A stretch of DNA of 36,585 nucleotides from a virus, in IMG/VR virus record IMGVR_UViG_3300035665_000131, positions 1-36,585 of that record. The stretch is one strand, 5' to 3'. Positions 1-36,585 of this stretch are shown one piece after another. Position 1 is the stretch's first letter. Every line of letters starts with the position of its first letter. Position numbers and translations under genes: made by a program. The notes beneath the pieces are model-generated. The model did not search any database. It worked only from the letters and a program-made list of their open reading frames with translations, and had not been told where the DNA came from.

Positions 1-52
1 ATCGAGAAAATTCGCGGATCACCAAGGGGCGGGGGTAGTTGGCGCCGCCCGA

Positions 53-405
53 GGGTGACATTGGGTGACTTTTTGGGCGCTTTTTGCCCTCGTTTGGGTG
101 ACATGGGCGCTGGTTGCCCTTATAGCACCAGGGCCTTTAGGCACGATTTGGGTGACATAGACCCCTCTAGGGTGACATAGGGTGACTTTTGGGAAAGCTA
201 TCTCACCCAAACAACTTGCTGATCTTCAGTGCGTAGAACCACGTAGGGTGACATAGTGTAGATGTTTTACTTAAAAAAAATATATTCATCTCTCCTGTAA
301 AAGAAGAAAGTTTTGGCCGATTTTCCGCTCTATGTCACCCAAATGGGTCTAATGGGCTGATCTTTCGAGAGTTAATCCAAAAGCTATGTCACCCTGTAGT
401 CACCC
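53..405. repeat. GGGTGAC repeat array, left-end non-coding region
   Basis: Ten copies of GGGTGAC lie in the first 405 bases. Seven are direct, starting at 53, 63, 96, 150, 170, 180 and 246; three are inverted (GTCACCC), starting at 334, 388 and 399. Six of the ten extend to GGGTGACATA or GGGTGACATT and two to GGGTGACTTT. Bases 261-292 between the direct and inverted groups are AT-rich. The stretch 1-422 holds no convincing gene; a short minus-strand frame across it is explained by the repeats. Position beside an HNH nuclease and the terminase genes suggests a packaging (cos/pac) or terminase-binding site; an origin or a repressor-operator array are alternatives. The repeats are seen directly; the function is inferred. 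Confidence 0.9.
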
Positions 406-422
406 ACACACACCAAACGCCG

Positions 423-857
423 ATGGGAGGCGATATTTGCTGTATGGATATTCGAAGGAAACAAAGACCCAAACCGTGGATGGCGAAGAAGAAGGCGAGG
501 GCAGTTTGGAATATGACTACGGGAGAGAGAGTCAAGCCCTTCGCTCAGAACTCGCACGACAGCTCGTTCTACCAGACGCCCGAATGGAGGGCTACGTCTA
601 AGGCGGTGCTCAACAGGGACGCTATATGTAAGTGGTGCATCAACCTGGGCAAGCTAACGGTGGCAACGCAGGCCGACCACGTCATCCCTCTCCATCGACT
701 CACAGATATCCACCCCCTTGATCAAGACAATATAGTAGGCTCTTGCGTTTCATGCAACGCTCGTAGAGCAGCACTCGATGCAAGAGGTATTGTATTTTAT
801 ACATTTGAGGATTGGGTGAAATACCTAAGAAGCAGAAATGACCTACTATCTAAATAA
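423..857 (+). CDS. HNH endonuclease
   Basis: A 144-residue protein with a treble-clef HNH fold signature: a zinc knuckle CxxC at residues 69-72, the ADHVIPL strand with catalytic His86, Asn103 of the central N, and a second CxxC at 108-111. HNH proteins next to terminase in phages of this type work with the large terminase in genome packaging and cos cleavage. The basic N-terminal stretch (KPWMAKKKA) is usual for the family. Starts at 447 (MDIRRK) and 480 (MAKKKA) are equally possible; the sequence does not decide between them. Its stop overlaps the next gene by 20 bases. Confidence 0.85.
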   Translation: MGGDICCMDIRRKQRPKPWMAKKKARAVWNMTTGERVKPFAQNSHDSSFYQTPEWRATSKAVLNRDAICKWCINLGKLTVATQADHVIPLHRLTDIHPLDQDNIVGSCVSCNARRAALDARGIVFYTFEDWVKYLRSRNDLLSK

Positions 858-1239: not shown

Positions 1240-1594
1240 AGCGGGAAGACAGTTCGCCGAGGACTGCATGACTTCGATCAGCAGAACGAATAACGGCAAC
1301 ATCGTCCTTGGGAACAGGACTCAGGCCTTCAAGCAATATCAGGTATGTATTTCCGTTGAGGGATACAACCGACCTGCCCGTGGCGTCGATTCCGTTGAGC
1401 TTTCGTTCAATTGCTACGACGAAACCATCGCAGGCAGCTGTGAGCTGGCGCAGTCTATTGTCGATGCCCTGCCATCGAATATGATCTATACTTACGACGA
1501 AAAGAAGTACACCCTTACCTTCTCTGACCTTTACCAAGATGTGCCAGACAACGACTTCTATAAGACATCAGTATCGGTAAGGTTCGTATCGTGA
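1214..1594 (+). CDS. Putative tail terminator/completion protein
   Basis: A 126-residue protein, not recognised with certainty. The pattern, an N-terminal helix, then YQVCISVEGYN, a central helix (CELAQSIVDALPSN) and a C-terminal strand ending YKTSVSVRFVS, resembles the small tail-terminator/tail-completion proteins that cap siphovirus tails. These usually lie between the neck and tail-tube genes; here the only candidate is upstream of the terminase, which would be a displaced position. It overlaps the VRR-NUC gene by 26 bases and the small terminase by 4 (GTGA-type junction). The alternative is an unrelated small packaging-associated protein. Confidence 0.45.
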   Translation: MATIWETLKAGRQFAEDCMTSISRTNNGNIVLGNRTQAFKQYQVCISVEGYNRPARGVDSVELSFNCYDETIAGSCELAQSIVDALPSNMIYTYDEKKYTLTFSDLYQDVPDNDFYKTSVSVRFVS

Positions 1595-2067
1595 GCAATA
1601 ACAAGCACAAAATCCTTCAGGATATGAGGGTTGCCGCCGCTGAGGGGGCAAAAGAGGTGATGAAGAAGGTGGTCGAGCCTTCTAAGGATATGATGCCTAT
1701 CGTGGTGCTCGACAAGGACGGTGAGAGGATGTTCAAGCTGGTGATCGATCATCTGGCGGCGAGCGGCCTTTTAGAATCCATCGACGTGGTTACTATCACG
1801 ATGTTGGCGAAAAACCTGTCTATGTTCGTTATGATCTCGCGAGAAATACAAGATGTAAGCGATATCATCCAGTATTACGAGAACGGCACATCTAACGTAA
1901 GCGGAAAGATGATGGCTCTTTCAAAGGTTCAGGGCGAGGTTCAGAAGCTGAGCGCGAAGCTCGGTCTGTCTCCGCTCGACCGGGCGAGGATCCTCGGCGC
2001 TTCGGTAAATGCGGCGAATGCTGCTGCTAAATCGGCGGAGGGAGACGCCATCGATGAGCTCACTTGA
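1591..2067 (+). CDS. terS: Terminase small subunit
   Basis: A 158-residue protein immediately before the large terminase. The start is GTG overlapping the previous stop. Composition and order fit the P27-like small terminase group: a helical N-terminal half, residues about 60-95 in long helices (LAKNLSMFVMISREIQD), and a C-terminal segment LGLSPLDRARILG, where Leu-x-Pro-x-(D/S)-R-x-(R/K) is a recurrent feature of this family. It recognises phage DNA and loads the large subunit. The last 14 bases are shared with the next gene. The neighbouring GGGTGAC array is a plausible binding target, but this is inference. Confidence 0.85.
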   Translation: MSNNKHKILQDMRVAAAEGAKEVMKKVVEPSKDMMPIVVLDKDGERMFKLVIDHLAASGLLESIDVVTITMLAKNLSMFVMISREIQDVSDIIQYYENGTSNVSGKMMALSKVQGEVQKLSAKLGLSPLDRARILGASVNAANAAAKSAEGDAIDELT

Positions 2068-3772
2068 CCTCACCGTGGTGAATAGGATGTACGACTATGT
2101 CGAAGACGTCCTAGATGGTAAAATAGTTGCAGGGAAGTATACGAAGTTGGCTTGCCAGCGATTCGTTGATGATATCTCCTCTGATCAATTTGAGTTCGAC
2201 GTAGAGTCGGCGGCGCGGTACATCACCTTTATAGAGAAGGTATGCATCCATACGAGGGGTGAACACGGCAAACCGTTCATCCTTTCGCCGTGGCAGGTCT
2301 TTTTCGTGGGTCAGCTGTTCGGGTGGAAGCGCAAGGGCGACCTCTCGAAGAGGAGGTTCACTACGGCCCATCTGTTCGTCGGGAGGAAGAACGGCAAGTC
2401 GCAGCTGGCGGCGGCGATCATCCTGGCTATGGCTGTGCTCGATGACGACGGGGCTCCCCAGTTCGTCACTGCGGCCACCAAAAGAGACCAGGCGAAGGAG
2501 GTTTTCGACGAGATACGCCGTATAGTCAAGGCTTCGGCCCCTTTGAACAAGCGTTTTTCGGTAAACAGGAACGAGATCCTCTCTCCGCGCGAGGGTATAA
2601 TTAAGCCCCTCTCTTCTGACGCGAATACGCTCGACGGGTTGAGCTTGAACGTGGGCTGCGTAGATGAGATGCACGCCATGAAGAACGGCGACCTGTACAG
2701 AGTCCTCTCCTCTTCTATGGGAAGCCGCAAAAATCCGCTTATGTTGGCGATTTCTACGGCTGGATTTGTTCTGGACGGCCTTGCCACGGAATTTGTGAAG
2801 GGAGGCAAGGCTGTGCTGGACGGGAACGTGGTGAACGACTCTCTGTTGTTTATGATCTACGAGTTGGACGAGGACGACCAGTGGAGTGACAGCGAGTGCT
2901 GGATCAAGGCCAATCCCAACTTAGGAGTTTCGATAAGTGAAGAATGGTTAAAAGACAAGTACGAGAACGCCAAGATCTACTCCGGCAGGCATATTACCGA
3001 GTTTATGGTGAAGCACTGCAACTTATTCGTAGGTTCTGACACGGTGTGGGTTGAGGAGGAGGTGTGGATGTCTGAGGACAACGTGGAGCCGCTACCCACC
3101 CCGAACAAGCAGGAGGCGTATATCGGCCTCGACCTTTCGGAGACGGACGACATCACGGCCATTGCCGTTGCTATAGGCGATGTCAACTCGAGGATTTCGA
3201 TATATATGCAGTATTTCGTGTGCCGTTCTGCTGTCGAGAGGCGCCTAAAGAAGGACGAGACTTCGATTTACTCGAGGATTGGCGAGTACGACAACGTCTA
3301 CGTGATCGACACGAACAGCATCGACTATAACGTGATTCGCAGAAAGATCAGCGGCTACTACGTTATGGACGGGGTGACGCACTACGACGACGACAACATC
3401 TCCAACAAGTTCAACCTGAAGTCTGTAGCCTACGACCGATGGAACAGCTTGAGTTTGATTCGCGACCTGGAGGGAGACGGGGTGGTTTGCTCCCCTTATG
3501 GACAAGGATACGCTTCTCTCTCGTTCCCTTCTAAGACGTTAGAGAAGCTGGCGAGGGACGGGAAGCTACAGCACGGGGGCGACGAGGTGCTTCGGTGGAT
3601 GATGAGCAATGTAAAGCTCAGGATGGATCCTTCTGGAAATATAAAGCCAGACAAGGAGAAAAGTGGCGATAAAATTGACGGGGTTGTGGCTGCTGTTATG
3701 AGTATAGGAGAGATGTTGTCTTATACTGAGGAAGATGACAGTGCGTTCGAACCCTTCTTCACTGTAGTTTGA
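2054..3772 (+). CDS. terL: Terminase large subunit (ATPase/nuclease)
   Basis: A 572-residue packaging motor of the HK97/Terminase_1 type. Walker A GRKNGKS lies at residues 110-116, Walker B VGCVDEMH at about 200-207 with the Asp-Glu pair, and the C-terminal RNase H-like nuclease domain begins near AYIGLDLSETDD with Asp360; the acidic residue in KSGDKIDGVVA near the end completes the site. An in-frame ATG at 2009 would also open this frame, but the start at 2054 (MSSLDLTVV) gives the normal N-terminus and a 14-base overlap with the small subunit, typical of coupled translation. Confidence 0.95.
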   Translation: MSSLDLTVVNRMYDYVEDVLDGKIVAGKYTKLACQRFVDDISSDQFEFDVESAARYITFIEKVCIHTRGEHGKPFILSPWQVFFVGQLFGWKRKGDLSKRRFTTAHLFVGRKNGKSQLAAAIILAMAVLDDDGAPQFVTAATKRDQAKEVFDEIRRIVKASAPLNKRFSVNRNEILSPREGIIKPLSSDANTLDGLSLNVGCVDEMHAMKNGDLYRVLSSSMGSRKNPLMLAISTAGFVLDGLATEFVKGGKAVLDGNVVNDSLLFMIYELDEDDQWSDSECWIKANPNLGVSISEEWLKDKYENAKIYSGRHITEFMVKHCNLFVGSDTVWVEEEVWMSEDNVEPLPTPNKQEAYIGLDLSETDDITAIAVAIGDVNSRISIYMQYFVCRSAVERRLKKDETSIYSRIGEYDNVYVIDTNSIDYNVIRRKISGYYVMDGVTHYDDDNISNKFNLKSVAYDRWNSLSLIRDLEGDGVVCSPYGQGYASLSFPSKTLEKLARDGKLQHGGDEVLRWMMSNVKLRMDPSGNIKPDKEKSGDKIDGVVAAVMSIGEMLSYTEEDDSAFEPFFTVV

Positions 3773-22134: not shown

Positions 22135-22666
22135 GGATGTTGTATTTGTCTAGGATGTCTAAAACGCTGACTTTGGAGTTATAGTCGTGGATGACATTGG
22201 CTAAACAATACATAGGCGGAGCAAGAGAGGGAGTGAGCTTGTAATTCGAAAGCCCGTTGATGTCTCTCATTTTGTGGGGGATGTTCCTCGATGCCTTGTA
22301 GAGCATGGCGTCCTCTAACGCGGAAGGGTACGATCCCCTATCGATAAAGAATGAATTTACGCCATAATAAGTCTCCGCGATGTGCCTATAACACTCCATC
22401 ATGTCGTAAATATCGGAATCTAAGGACGTTTCCCAAACAGAAACCACCGTCTTTCCCATATTCCGAGCCTCGAAGTAGTGTGTGGCGTCAGAAATAAGCT
22501 TCATAGGTAGGTAGCAATACCGGCGCAGAAACATCGCCATCGCCGTCCTGTACTTCGATTTGCGAGGATTAAAAGACTCGTCCTCGTTACACATATCTTT
22601 TACCAGCTCGTATACTGCATCTACTTCTAGGGGCTTAAACCCATAGATCTTATCTAGGTGATTCAT
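22118..22666 (-). CDS. Unknown protein between helicase and phosphoesterase
   Basis: A 182-residue protein without a recognised domain. It has a helical pattern with many aromatic and charged residues (RYCYLPMKLISDATHYFEA). It overlaps the helicase by 4 bases (ATGA) and the phosphoesterase by 17, so it is cotranslated with replication genes. It could be a primase-related or replication accessory factor, since the neighbouring helicase has no primase domain; this is inference from position only. Confidence 0.8.
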   Translation of the reverse strand: MNHLDKIYGFKPLEVDAVYELVKDMCNEDESFNPRKSKYRTAMAMFLRRYCYLPMKLISDATHYFEARNMGKTVVSVWETSLDSDIYDMMECYRHIAETYYGVNSFFIDRGSYPSALEDAMLYKASRNIPHKMRDINGLSNYKLTPSLAPPMYCLANVIHDYNSKVSVLDILDKYNIHERTD

Positions 22667-24087
22667 TTACTTGTTCCTGTGATAAAGAAAAACATCTCAT
22701 TATAGGCCTCTTTGTCGGCCACCTTAAACAGGTAGGTGTGCTTCCTTTTGCCGGCCGGATCTTTCGGGATGCCGTGGCTCTCGCACTTACCCTTAAACGT
22801 CCTCATAGAACCCGTCTGGTTGCCGTTCTTTACGCAGAACTGAGCATAGCCAGAATATAGGCGCTCTTGGTGGATCCACTCGCAGTCGGAGTCGTTCCTG
22901 TTGCCTACCTCGAGACCCGCTGCTCCCAAGAAAGAGAGGAACACATCCCCATCATGCCGGAAGTCGTCCAGGATGGTTGCCAGCTTAGACGGCCTCACCA
23001 TCTTTCCAAACGTGTTCTGCATAGTCACAAAGCAGCGGATCATATCGAAAAGCATCTCCTTCTGCTCTATGGGGTTCATAAGCTTCTCGCTGATGAAGGG
23101 GTCGCGCTCGCTCTCGGGGATGGCGTTCAGGAACTGGATGATGTCGATCCTCCTCGAGATACCGCTGTCACCCAAGGCGTGTGTAAAGCCAAACTCGTTC
23201 GAAGCGACTATCAGGGAGGCCCTCGGGACGAAATACTCGACCTCTTTGTACAGCCTGCGCCCGGAAATCTCTTCTTTCGAGACGATCTGCTTCAGCACGT
23301 CCTTATTGCCTAGGTTTCCCGAGGCGTCACCGCAGATACACAGTATGTGGTTGGCAAGGTCGATCCTATAGCGTGACTCGTCCTTCGTAAGGTTGGACAG
23401 GTCGTCTACACGGCATACGTTGCGCTTACCTACCACGTTCACCACGGCGTCGATCAGCGTGCTCTTCCCGCTCGCTGCCACACCCATCAAGATGAGCATC
23501 CTTTGGCTTTGGAGAGGGTCTCCCGCCAGAGAGTTCGCCAGCGAAGCCAAGGCGTAGTTACGCATAACCTCGTCCGGGATGGCCTTTTCGATAAAGTTCT
23601 TCCATACCGTGCCATCCTCCCGCTCTCCCATATACTTGAAGGGAAGGCAGTAGGTAAAGACGTTGGTAGGGTCATGAAACTCCATAAACACCATAGAATC
23701 TCTGTTAATCATCAGAGATCCGTCTATGAAGTTGAGTCCTCGGGGGTTCGTGTTGACGTTCGTGCCCCATCGGTCAGAGCAGACCGAAAGGCACTTCTCT
23801 ACAGCACGTACGAAGTCCCCGTCTATGGAAAGAGAGATAGGGCATCCTAAGCGATCGAGAGAAGCCTCTATAAGGTCGTAGATGCGCCCAGGTTCATAGA
23901 AACACCCATTCCATATATGCACAACCTGGCCTATGATAAGTATAGGCATGGCGCAGTCGTTCGCACTATAGTTGATGAGGGAGGCCACAGCAGAAGGCAT
24001 AGCCTTTGCTCCGACCTTCCCCTCTCCAACCAAAGTGACAATCGTTTTGCCGTCTAGTTTAGTTATCTTTTCTAGGATCGAGTTCAC
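22663..24087 (-). CDS. Replicative helicase, SF3 (D5/P4-type)
   Basis: A 474-residue protein. Residues 115-150 (RGLNFIDGSLMI) match the D5_N region that precedes SF3 helicases. Walker A GVAASGKST lies at 202-210, Walker B ILCICGDAS near 248-256, and VASNEF at 294-299 is the SF3 sensor motif; Arg311-313 (SRR) is the arginine-finger position. Archaeo-eukaryotic primase residues are not visible, so this is a helicase part only, unlike full P4 alpha proteins. It probably unwinds phage DNA at the origin. Confidence 0.92.
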   Translation of the reverse strand: MNSILEKITKLDGKTIVTLVGEGKVGAKAMPSAVASLINYSANDCAMPILIIGQVVHIWNGCFYEPGRIYDLIEASLDRLGCPISLSIDGDFVRAVEKCLSVCSDRWGTNVNTNPRGLNFIDGSLMINRDSMVFMEFHDPTNVFTYCLPFKYMGEREDGTVWKNFIEKAIPDEVMRNYALASLANSLAGDPLQSQRMLILMGVAASGKSTLIDAVVNVVGKRNVCRVDDLSNLTKDESRYRIDLANHILCICGDASGNLGNKDVLKQIVSKEEISGRRLYKEVEYFVPRASLIVASNEFGFTHALGDSGISRRIDIIQFLNAIPESERDPFISEKLMNPIEQKEMLFDMIRCFVTMQNTFGKMVRPSKLATILDDFRHDGDVFLSFLGAAGLEVGNRNDSDCEWIHQERLYSGYAQFCVKNGNQTGSMRTFKGKCESHGIPKDPAGKRKHTYLFKVADKEAYNEMFFFITGTSK

Positions 24088-25080: not shown

Positions 25081-25115
25081 GGAGTCTCTGTTGCGGCAGA
25101 TTTTGATCTCAAGAG

Positions 25116-25189
25116 TGGGCCGGGAGGGACTCAAACCCTCATGGTTCAATTTAGAAGATTGATGCATTGTTCAGTTATGCTACCAGCCC
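25116..25189 (-). tRNA. tRNA-Arg (anticodon UCU)
   Basis: Read on the minus strand, all four arms pair: acceptor GGGCTGG with CCGGCCC (7 bp, one G-U), D-stem GCAT/ATGC, anticodon stem TCAAT/ATTGA with loop CTTCTAA, variable ACCAT, and T-stem GAGGG/CCCTC with loop TTTGAGT. Anticodon TCT decodes AGA. The discriminator is A; CCA is not encoded. The D-loop lacks the usual GG, and the T-loop is slightly divergent. The phage genes of this block use AGA and AGG freely (for example 33570..34331), so supplying this tRNA is sensible. Confidence 0.85.
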
Positions 25190-27140: not shown

Positions 27141-27217
27141 TGGTGCTCCCTGCTGGGCTTGAACCAGCGACCAGCGGATTATGAGTCCGACGCTCTAACC
27201 GACTGAGCTAAGGGAGC
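27141..27217 (-). tRNA. tRNA with anticodon CAU (Ile2-like or Met)
   Basis: A standard tRNA: acceptor GCTCCCT/AGGGAGC, D-arm GCTC-AGTCGGTTA-GAGC, anticodon stem TCGGA/TCCGC (one mismatch) with loop CTCATAA, T-arm GCTGG-TTCAAGC-CCAGC, discriminator A, and an encoded CCA. The stretch around GACTCATAATC and GGTCGCTGGTTCAAG resembles bacterial tRNA-Ile(CAU), the lysidine-modified type that reads AUA, more than elongator Met, but this cannot be settled by sequence alone. Its 5' 23 bases overlap the 3' end of a protein gene. Confidence 0.9.
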
Positions 27218-27620
27218 GAGGAACCCTCGAGCGGATCATATCTAAGATATCATCCCTATTCTCGATGCCCATAGACACCAAATACTCGTCAAAGTCAGAT
27301 ATCACACAGTCTACGTTGTAGTTCTTGATCGCACGCTGAGCAAGAACGTACATCTCGTGGTAGCCCTTCCAATAGAGCATATTCGACTCGTGTTTCTTGC
27401 GGGCGTAAACCACAGCGTAGTGATCGGTATCGAAGTATGAGCTGATGGTCACATACGTAAAGTGTCCCACCAAAGCACACATGATAGCAGCACGAGGCAT
27501 ATACTGCTCTTTCGTCTTGACCCCGTTCTTTCTCTCTATGCCCACCTTGCGGTAGAAGCTCTCGATGATGGGGCCCAAACTCTCTTTATCCATCTTTACT
27601 TGTTTTTTTGATTTCGTCAA
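27195..27620 (-). CDS. DnaA domain IV-like DNA-binding protein
   Basis: A 141-residue protein. Residues about 42-77 (MPRAAIMCALVGHFTYVTIS then SYFDTDHYAVVYARKKH) follow the DnaA domain IV pattern: P-R at the basic-loop position, a helix, a helix-turn-helix, then D-H-x-x-V and A-x-K-K of the signature; the usual Arg before DH is Thr here. No AAA+ domain is present, so it is a stand-alone binder, probably of DnaA-box-like sites. The stop codon TAG falls inside the adjacent tRNA, so the last 23 bases overlap it. Met10 at 27593 is an alternative start. Confidence 0.65.
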   Translation of the reverse strand: MTKSKKQVKMDKESLGPIIESFYRKVGIERKNGVKTKEQYMPRAAIMCALVGHFTYVTISSYFDTDHYAVVYARKKHESNMLYWKGYHEMYVLAQRAIKNYNVDCVISDFDEYLVSMGIENRDDILDMIRSRVPRSLSSVG

Positions 27621-31250: not shown

Positions 31251-31796
31251 TTAATCTTTGATTAAGCGGACAGAGAAGCCGTTTTGAATGTCGAAGTCGT
31301 CTCGGCTGACACCCAAGTTCCTAGATATTAGGTAGTGACCCCAAGAACGCGCTCCACTCGGGGTTGAAGACCAGAACATAACGTAGTTGGTTTTATTTTT
31401 GAATCCACCATGTCGGACGCGGTATCCACTTGGAATAGCTTTGAATCCTTTGTTAACTTCCGCACCATCCCAATCTTTCGGTGACTTTAACAAGCTACCT
31501 GCTTTTTTAATGCCTCCGAAATATCCTTCATTGTCTCCGCAATACTCAACAAGTTGTCTCCATTCTTTATCTGACGGAACGTGGAATCCCTCGGGGGCAA
31601 GACCTCGTGGGTCGTTGACTGCGTACCAGTTGTAGTAACACTCCCCGTTGTCGGGGTTGATGCACATAGCAGATTCTTGCAGGCCCGCCCACTCGTCTGC
31701 GTCTTGTACAATCGGAATATGGTCTCCGTTGCGGAACTTGAACACTCGGAGATTCTTCGTAGTCCAAACTTGCGATCCGATTTGAATAGTTTTCAT
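31251..31796 (-). CDS. FISUMP-domain protein
   Basis: A 181-residue protein that is nearly all FISUMP domain (Fibrobacter succinogenes major paralogous domain, TIGR02145): MKTIQIGSQVWTTKNLRVFK at the start, DNGECYYNWYAVNDPRG in the middle, GLAPEGFHVPSDKEWRQL, then SGYRVRHGGFKNK and VMFWSSTPSG at the end. The family is almost confined to Bacteroidota and related groups, where it is usually surface or secreted; here there is no signal peptide. It is strong evidence for the host group and possibly acquired from it. Leader has CAAGAAATC just before the ATG. Confidence 0.9.
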   Translation of the reverse strand: MKTIQIGSQVWTTKNLRVFKFRNGDHIPIVQDADEWAGLQESAMCINPDNGECYYNWYAVNDPRGLAPEGFHVPSDKEWRQLVEYCGDNEGYFGGIKKAGSLLKSPKDWDGAEVNKGFKAIPSGYRVRHGGFKNKTNYVMFWSSTPSGARSWGHYLISRNLGVSRDDFDIQNGFSVRLIKD

Positions 31797-33514: not shown

Positions 33515-33573
33515 TTCTTGATGATTAAGAACAACATCATTAACAGTAAGAGGACAGAGTAAGCCACTATCAT
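33496..33573 (-). CDS. 25-residue membrane micropeptide
   Basis: A 25-residue protein, MIVAYSVLLLLMMLFLIIKK plus CDKTL: one membrane segment and a short basic tail. Its start overlaps the stop of the upstream 253-residue gene by ATGA, the coupling style of this genome, and it overlaps the next gene by 19 bases. Too short for automatic calling, but position and the consistent overlap support it. Confidence 0.6.
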   Translation of the reverse strand: MIVAYSVLLLLMMLFLIIKKCDKTL

Positions 33574-34331
33574 GGCTCGACAAAGAATCTTGTCGTCAGG
33601 CCGAGAGCCTCGCGCTCGCGAGTCGTACGCTTGACTCGAAGTCCTGCGATATACGCTCCGGTCTCAGGAGCACCCAACTTGCGGTCGAGGAATCTTGCGT
33701 CGGTTTCGTCAGCGTCGAAGACAGGAAGCCCGCGCCATTCTTGAGGCAGACTTGCATTCTTGCGGACTCGGCCAGTCTTGGAGTCGACATCGGCGAATGG
33801 AACCGCGATGCCCAGGTTATACTTGGTCGCTACGTCGAGCAATTCTTGCCAGTCTAATTCTTCTGAGTAGCTGAGCGTCAGGTGATAGTTGGGGTACTTC
33901 TCGAGCAGCTTGACACGGTTGAGCACCTTCGTGTAGTCGTAGAACTGAACGTCACTGAATTCTTGGAGGATAGACTTGAACAGCTCCGGCGAGAGGTCGC
34001 TGGTGCCGTTGAGGCGGATAGCCAAAGTGTCTCCGTATTTCTTGCGGGCAGACTTGATTTCTTTTCGTAGCTGCTCGATGAAGTCTAGACGGTTAGAGTA
34101 GAAGTAGTTCGTGCGCCCAATTCTTGCCTTGTGGATCTTGGTGTCGAACTTGGCACGCCCTGCGAAGTGTAGGCACGTAGCCCTGCAGCCCGCTGAACTT
34201 TTTGGACATACATTCTTGCCGCTCGAGTCGTATGGCGACAGGTACACAATTCCTGTGTTGACGTCTACCTTGACGCCCTTGATAGTCTTGGCCGAAGAGT
34301 TTACGCCCAAGATGTAGCTGAATTCTTTCAT
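33570..34331 (-). CDS. Conserved phage protein with CxxxC-type cluster
   Basis: A 253-residue protein of a widespread phage family that I know only as hypothetical: NSSAKTIKGVKVDVNTGIVY, the cluster CPKSSAGCRATC (residues 41-52), then AIRLNGTSDLSPELF and FYDYTKVLNRV, and YHLTLSYSEE. The three cysteines near the start and the order of strands recall the family annotated gp37/gp68-like. A metal or iron-sulfur site is possible, but no enzymatic role is established. Ends in ATGA overlap with a micropeptide. Confidence 0.7.
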   Translation of the reverse strand: MKEFSYILGVNSSAKTIKGVKVDVNTGIVYLSPYDSSGKNVCPKSSAGCRATCLHFAGRAKFDTKIHKARIGRTNYFYSNRLDFIEQLRKEIKSARKKYGDTLAIRLNGTSDLSPELFKSILQEFSDVQFYDYTKVLNRVKLLEKYPNYHLTLSYSEELDWQELLDVATKYNLGIAVPFADVDSKTGRVRKNASLPQEWRGLPVFDADETDARFLDRKLGAPETGAYIAGLRVKRTTREREALGLTTRFFVEP

Positions 34332-35593: not shown

Positions 35594-35983
35594 TTAAATT
35601 ACTTCGCTATCATCGCAGATCAGCATCCAATAATCGAACGCGCTCACAATTGAGGCGCGGATTGAATCCTCCGTAACTACCGCCGAAGTAGTCCACGCAC
35701 GTTTGACGTCCCCCCCCCATACAGCCGTCAAGTTGACGTCCTGCGAATTGAACACTTTGCGGCCGTCAACCTCAACGCGGACAGTATGTGGTGCAGTTAA
35801 GCTCCATCCTGATCCACCGGGCCCCTTAAGGGTGCGGAACTTCGCAGCATGCGCGGCGAACTTGTTTGCCGCAGCCACTACGGCTGATCGGTCGGACGTT
35901 TCGCCCGTACGGGTTACCAGAAGGTGAACGGTTACCGGGCGCTTTCCGTGCGAAGTAACGAAGATTTCAATTTGAGTTTCCAT
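35594..35983 (-). CDS. Unknown protein, first gene of the minus-strand unit
   Basis: A 129-residue protein (METQIEIFVTSHGKRPVTVH; VLRR-like basic features absent) with a strand-rich N-terminal half and a Gly/Ser-rich turn (GPGGSGWSLTAPHTV). Ends in an acidic tail (ICDDSEVI). Its codon use is GC-richer than that of neighbouring small genes. It stands alone with a long leader and a good Bacteroidetes-type promoter upstream, and is followed by a tRNA-like element. Possibly an early, highly expressed protein; function unknown. Confidence 0.75.
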   Translation of the reverse strand: METQIEIFVTSHGKRPVTVHLLVTRTGETSDRSAVVAAANKFAAHAAKFRTLKGPGGSGWSLTAPHTVRVEVDGRKVFNSQDVNLTAVWGGDVKRAWTTSAVVTEDSIRASIVSAFDYWMLICDDSEVI

Positions 35984-36055
35984 AACACTAAAAATTAAAA
36001 GGTTTTGTTGTTGTTTTTATTATTTGTCCCTTGTGCGTTTGCGATCAGGACACAA

Positions 36056-36085
36056 CGAAGGTAGAAATAAATTCCGGAAAGTCAA
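36056..36085 (-). promoter_or_regulatory. Bacteroidetes-type promoter for the minus-strand unit
   Basis: On the minus strand, TTG (36083-36085) is separated by 19 bases from TACCTTCG (36056-36063), which matches the Bacteroidetes -7 element TAnnTTTG at all but one position. It lies about 70 bases upstream of the 35983 start. The elements are seen; activity is inferred. Confidence 0.55.
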
Positions 36086-36188
36086 GCGCCACCCCAAAAA
36101 AAATGCAGAAAGCCCCCCTATATATATATGTGTCAAGCGGGCAAAATTGGCTAAAAATTTAACATTTGGGCGGAAGCCAAACGGCCCC

Positions 36189-36221
36189 CAAACATACCCA
36201 AAAGACACCGAACACCCCCAA
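36189..36221 (-). promoter_or_regulatory. Second promoter candidate, minus strand
   Basis: A perfect -7 element TATGTTTG (36189-36196) with TTG at 36219-36221, 22 bases upstream of it. Slightly long spacing. It lies about 200 bases before the first minus-strand gene and could be a second start point or belong to an untranslated RNA. Confidence 0.35.
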
Positions 36222-36309
36222 ACCGTTAGTTATTGATAATTAAGGTAATTACAAAAATTAGAACAAAACGGTCGGATGTTGTTACTAATTAAATGCAAGT
36301 AATTCGAAT

Positions 36310-36447
36310 GTATAAAATAGTGTTATCGACGAAATAAGGGAAAAAATTATACACCCTCAAAATTTATACTACCGACGAAACAGCGGGAAAATTTATACAC
36401 CCAAAATTTATACTACCGACGAAACAGAAAGAAATATTATACACCCC
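36310..36447. repeat. AT-rich iteron array with DnaA-box-like sites (candidate origin)
   Basis: Two identical 25-base copies (36359-36383 and 36403-36427) and a diverged third upstream occur with a 44-46 base period. Each period carries TTATACACC (36347, 36393, 36437), which differs at one position from the DnaA-box TTATnCACA. AT-rich stretches surround the array. The phage encodes a DnaA domain IV-like protein and an SF3 helicase. An origin of replication is the best explanation; operator clusters are the alternative. Confidence 0.8.
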
Positions 36448-36460
36448 GAACGTATAAATC

Positions 36461-36547
36461 CGTGAAACATCGACGAATGCGTGAAACATACGTTGAAAAT
36501 ACGTTGCAAACGGCTGAAACCCCTGTAAATACAGGCCATCCAGGGGT
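36461..36547. repeat. Short direct repeats and dyad at the right end
   Basis: CGTGAAACAT occurs at 36461 and 36480, ATACGTTG at 36488 and 36499. A perfect dyad CCTGT-AAAT-ACAGG lies at 36522-36535, nested in ACCCCTG/CAGGGGT (36519-36525 with 36541-36547). No gene is found from 35984 to the window end. This is probably part of the same replication or regulatory region as the iteron array. Confidence 0.65.
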
Positions 36548-36585
36548 AGGGGGGTGCCAAAATTATACGGTCACCAGGCGGCCAC

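Follow-up and report, generated by a model that had tools for sequence, protein, structure and literature searches.

A conserved repeat array beside the probable cos-type end of a metagenomic phage genome is better described as candidate iterons than as DnaA boxes

The window analyzed here is the whole of IMG/VR virus record IMGVR_UViG_3300035665_000131, a stretch of 36,585 nucleotides classed as linear. The features on which the analysis bears are listed below, with the strand in parentheses.

1..40 (+), left physical end; the starts of 19 contigs, the window among them, fall exactly 40 nt before a G-run motif ends
53..405 (no strand assigned), ten GGGTGAC[A/T] repeats in both orientations, a probable cosB-like terminase binding region
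423..857 (+), HNH endonuclease gene (PF01844, E 2.7e-5)
1591..2067 (+), small terminase gene of the P27 type (PF05119, E 6.2e-9; TIGR01558 below cut-off)
2009..3772 (+), large terminase gene
22663-24087 (-), SF3/D5-type helicase gene, a D5/primase-helicase relative
27195..27593 (-), stand-alone DnaA domain IV-like protein with a likely ATG start; the ORF extends to 27620 from a TTG
36220..36500 (no strand assigned), AT-rich noncoding stretch surrounding the array, GC 0.32
36310..36489 (+), whole array, CGACGAA alternating with TTATAC
36347-36355, 36393-36401 and 36437-36445 (+), three TTATACACC sites, the near-DnaA boxes of the earlier note, present only in the window's own clade
36569..36585 (+), right physical end, cos side, placed by junction comparison with contig L021

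The array comprises three units of 44-46 bp at 36324-36446, in DNA of 32% GC, with 33-nt direct repeats beginning at 36324, 36370 and 36414 (spacing of 46 and 44), and the GC content of 0.32 at 36220-36500 compares with about 0.50 genome-wide. The earlier note had described three sites every 44-46 bases in AT-rich DNA, and these are indeed present and unmatched by local shuffling of the sequence. It did not mention that two motifs alternate along the array, i.e. TTATAC (36347, 36364, 36393, 36408 and 36437 on the plus strand, 36310 and 36452 on the minus strand) and CGACGAA (36327, 36373, 36417 and 36471). By count alone TTATNCACM is not rare in the whole window (3 observed versus 1.67 expected). 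When the local clusters were compared with 1000 local shuffles, TTATACACC was found 3 times versus a shuffle mean of 0.007, TTATAC 8 times versus 0.48, and CGACGAA 4 times versus 0.06, and none of the 1000 shuffles reached any of the observed counts. The array is real. At its right edge (36461-36489) lie two copies of CGTGAAACA, 19 bp apart and invariant in three genomes, which resemble half of a parS site. An Rfam scan returned two tRNAs only and no RNA family that accounts for the array.

The conservation of the motifs was analyzed by aligning the window with G001 and L021, i.e. three related genomes. Both motifs had been picked before the conservation count, for being repeated, and the test is therefore a fair one for constraint. 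CGACGAA was invariant at 28 of 28 positions and TTATAC at 41 of 42, compared with 85 of 116 for the remaining positions of the array (Fisher p 2e-6 for both motifs versus the remainder, in three related genomes only), and the ACC that completes the DnaA-like box was invariant at 7 of 9. As judged from this alignment, the array is under selection.

In more distant relatives the place of the array is better preserved than its sequence. CGA[C/T]GAA repeats were found on the same side of cos in G011, G012 and L033, with a spacing of 21, 21, 8, 21 and 21 and at identical distances to the cut, the 21-bp period being about two helical turns; the L014 array has the same spacing, and the arrays of L094 and L008 are shorter. 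Other repeats stand at the same place in L055 (GTGTACTTTGGACAC, four copies) and G004 (GTGCGTGCATA, five copies), and the last repeat lies 115, 62 and 40 bp from the cut in different clades. L042, which has the cos core and a GGGTGAC array, carries no CGACGAA array within its 355 nt. The array would thus seem to be lineage-specific, its motif sequence changing between lineages and its place staying the same. The inverted-repeat element GTGTACTTTGGACAC, whose four copies in L055 lie at 296-404, also flanks the CGACGAA array in G012 and L033, and was noted near the array in L031 as well as L033.

The array is found 115-276 bp inward from the right end of the genome, a location that the earlier note had not considered, and the nature of that end was examined by comparison with other contigs. 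The G-run motif stands near the start of 39 family contigs, and 19 of these (counting the window, and with a few near duplicates such as L025 and L032) share the left-end offset of 40; contig starts upstream of the large terminase gene cluster at 1.5-2.5 kb. L021 crosses the junction between the window's right and left ends, and the intervening stretch is 30 nt long in L021 and 17 nt in the window; G001 runs from window position 19 to 36568. That the ends of the window are random breaks of the assembly was rejected, since other contigs share the end and L021 runs across the junction. The 13 extra nt of L021 are the GC-rich CGGTGCCGGCCGA, and similar GC-rich stretches stand directly before the cut in L030, L033 and L055, which suggests that a GC-rich overhang may have been lost in library preparation. 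From the fixed position shared by independent contigs, and from the terminase genes and repeats beside it (ten GGGTGAC copies, the HNH gene, the P27-type small terminase and the large terminase), we infer that the genome end is cos-type.

The small terminase of lambda recognises three R sites within cosB, and termination involves a signal of its own, cosQ (PMC4669245); in HK97, an HNH protein promotes cos cleavage (PMC9410871). The window resembles the cos sites of lambda/N15 and HK97 in having defined ends near terminase genes, terminase-side repeats and an HNH gene nearby, but it differs from them in carrying ten GGGTGAC copies instead of three R sites and an additional array on the right side (PMC4669245, PMC9410871). 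The ten copies at 53-405 compare with about two expected in the whole window, and this array is kept across the family; its place and conservation point to GGGTGAC as the probable binding site of the small terminase.

The earlier note had read the three sites as near-DnaA boxes, a reading that does not survive comparison with relatives. TTATnCACA has no match in the array, and neither TTATNCACA nor TTWTNCACA occurs in 35984-36585; the TTATACACC sites of the window fit a relaxed E. coli pattern only. In L021 the box-like 3' end has drifted, two of the three sites reading TTATACAGC and failing even the relaxed pattern. TTATACACC is confined to the window's clade, being absent from the homologous right-end region in nine of nine more distant relatives checked, and its 3' part is less conserved than TTATAC (7/9 versus 41/42). 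An array of DnaA boxes was therefore rejected. TTATYAACA sites occur in all nine distant right-end regions and are missing from the window clade. Pairs of TTATCAACA and TTATTAACA, nearer to the DnaA-box form than the window's sites, were observed in the right-end regions of L031, L033, L042 and L094.

As for the protein, the 141-residue ORF probably begins with the ATG at 27593 and not with the TTG at 27620, because homologues begin nearby and L001 differs upstream of it. An AlphaFold model of 27195-27617 (pLDDT 77.7, pTM 0.66) superposed on solved DnaA domain IV structures with Z scores of 9.9 (3pvp) and 9.6 (1j1v), an rmsd of 2.4 and about 90 residues, and other helix-turn-helix folds did not fit equally well, the next-best fold being TrpR with a Z score of 4.8. 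Foldseek ranked the same DnaA domain IV entries first, with a probability of 0.99 but an E value of 0.15. No DnaA sequence profile in Pfam or NCBIfam matched the 27195-27620 product, and since no profile finds the family, the DnaA assignment holds at the level of the fold. At that level the structure prediction bears out the proposal of a stand-alone DnaA domain IV-like protein: the product is predicted to have the fold of the DNA-binding domain of bacterial DnaA (1j1v, 3pvp) and, unlike bacterial DnaA, it has neither an AAA+ domain nor a sequence-profile match.

Homologues at about 27% identity were found in G011, G012 and G013, and P41-R42, D65 and V69 are invariant across this small family, presumably matching residues through which E. 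coli DnaA contacts bases and backbone. A single-sequence model of the 94-residue homologue (pLDDT 46.7) was too poor for a search. According to the structure search, DnaA C-terminal-only proteins are already annotated in many phages, and the small proteins of Nonlabens phage P12024L, Tenacibaculum phage Gundel_1 and uncultured Caudovirales have the same predicted fold, at 8-22% identity to the window protein in structure alignments. Sequence searches of phages and the PDB with the protein gave nothing useful, and the literature titles and abstracts returned contained no phage DnaA domain IV initiator, which is not evidence of absence. Two tRNA genes, Met (CAT) and Arg (TCT), lie on the minus strand at 27141-27217 and 25115-25189, and tRNA-Met overlaps the 3' end of the DnaA domain IV-like ORF by 23 bases.

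The earlier note had joined this protein and the array into a matched, minimal initiator system, with the TTATACACC boxes as the target of the DnaA domain IV-only protein and the SF3 helicase as its partner. The helicase itself was confirmed as a D5/primase-helicase relative, and the fold of the protein, its invariant putative contact residues and the preservation of TTATAC all speak for such a system. Against it, the 3' part of the box drifts and the TTATnCACA form is missing, the gene stands about 8.7 kb from the array, and protein and array do not go together among relatives. L014, which shares synteny with G012 (77-99% amino-acid identity), keeps the array but has only 67 nt where G012 carries the gene (in a 12.7-kb contig, so that a copy elsewhere in the genome is possible); L008 has the array and no detectable homologue; and G011 and G012 have the protein and no TTATACACC. 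The matched system is therefore improbable, and the array of the relatives would not appear to need the DnaA domain IV protein. That the protein instead binds TTATAC half-sites and brings in host DnaA or the phage helicase, at an origin beside the packaging site, we consider very improbable. Because relatives keep the array without the DnaA-like protein, a control site of the phage itself, for replication or packaging, is the more probable reading.

A role in packaging, with the array as the outer part of cos, bound by terminase or a DNA-bending protein and marking the right end, for example in the termination of packaging, would suit its position close to that end and the identical distances to the cut in G011, G012 and L033, and lambda-type cos sites do have in cosQ a separate signal needed for termination (PMC4669245). 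We regard this role as unlikely, since the array motif, unlike GGGTGAC, is not family-wide and the distance from the last repeat to the cut varies by clade. Regularly spaced direct repeats in a noncoding region between divergent gene blocks could also serve as operators for a regulator acting on the divergent early and late promoters, but the early genes start more than 300 bp away, at 35983, and no repressor was recognised among the scanned proteins, a minority of the genes. The promoter scan of 35900-36585, which omits Bacteroidota-type promoters, gave a sole sigma-70-type match at 35995-36023, no more than expected by chance, and sigma-70-type promoters inside the array were rejected. An operator array is, in our judgment, rather unlikely.

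The reading that we tentatively prefer, at somewhat less than an even chance, is that the array consists of replication-origin iterons beside the cos packaging site, recognised by a putative binding protein. Iteron-type replication origins of plasmids and phages consist of short direct repeats in AT-rich noncoding DNA, and the window array likewise consists of short direct repeats in register within such DNA. In agreement with an origin, the two in-register motifs are preserved above the rest of the array, an array with a 21-bp period stands at the same place beside cos in distant relatives, and the AT-rich intergenic region lies upstream of the helicase-carrying early operon. The turnover of the motif at a fixed place also favors iterons, because iterons evolve together with the protein that binds them; the GGGTGAC array, by contrast, is kept throughout the family. 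The cumulative GC skew has its minimum at the genome ends and its maximum near 22 kb; this minimum agrees with an origin at the genome ends, although the evidence is weak because skew follows gene direction in this genome. The absence of a CGACGAA array from the 355 nt of L042 stands against an origin.

In such an origin, the iteron array would occupy the noncoding, AT-rich stretch that separates the leftward early operon from the right cos end. Its repeated sites are bipartite, an AT-rich hexamer and then CGACGAA, and the putative protein would bind them in register. The adjacent AT-rich DNA would then open and the phage SF3-type helicase would be loaded, so that the array region would most likely be the replication origin of the phage. 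Packaging would proceed through the neighboring cos, with the GGGTGAC repeats opposite serving to bind the small terminase.

The host is not established, because searches of genome_contigs confirmed no relative of the DnaA domain IV protein or of the large terminase, and the best-ranked cultured-phage match to the latter is only 33.7% identical. An ORF at 31251-31796 (-), which on visual inspection looks like a FISUMP-type (Fibrobacter succinogenes paralogous) domain protein, may point to a host of the Bacteroidota type. A gene product 88 family protein is encoded at 33570-34331 (-; PF17338, E 1.3e-30).

For the phage itself, an iteron array next to a cos-type end, ordinary in kind, is probably the better description. 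The comparison illustrates that a DnaA-box likeness in one genome can disappear when relatives are considered, and it sets up a clear test for what phage DnaA domain IV-only proteins bind; should the one here bind TTATAC and bring in host DnaA or the helicase, it would be an initiator without an AAA+ domain, and replication and packaging would be coupled. It also gives a large phage group, known here from metagenomic contigs alone, a defined genome end that has a repeat array on either side.
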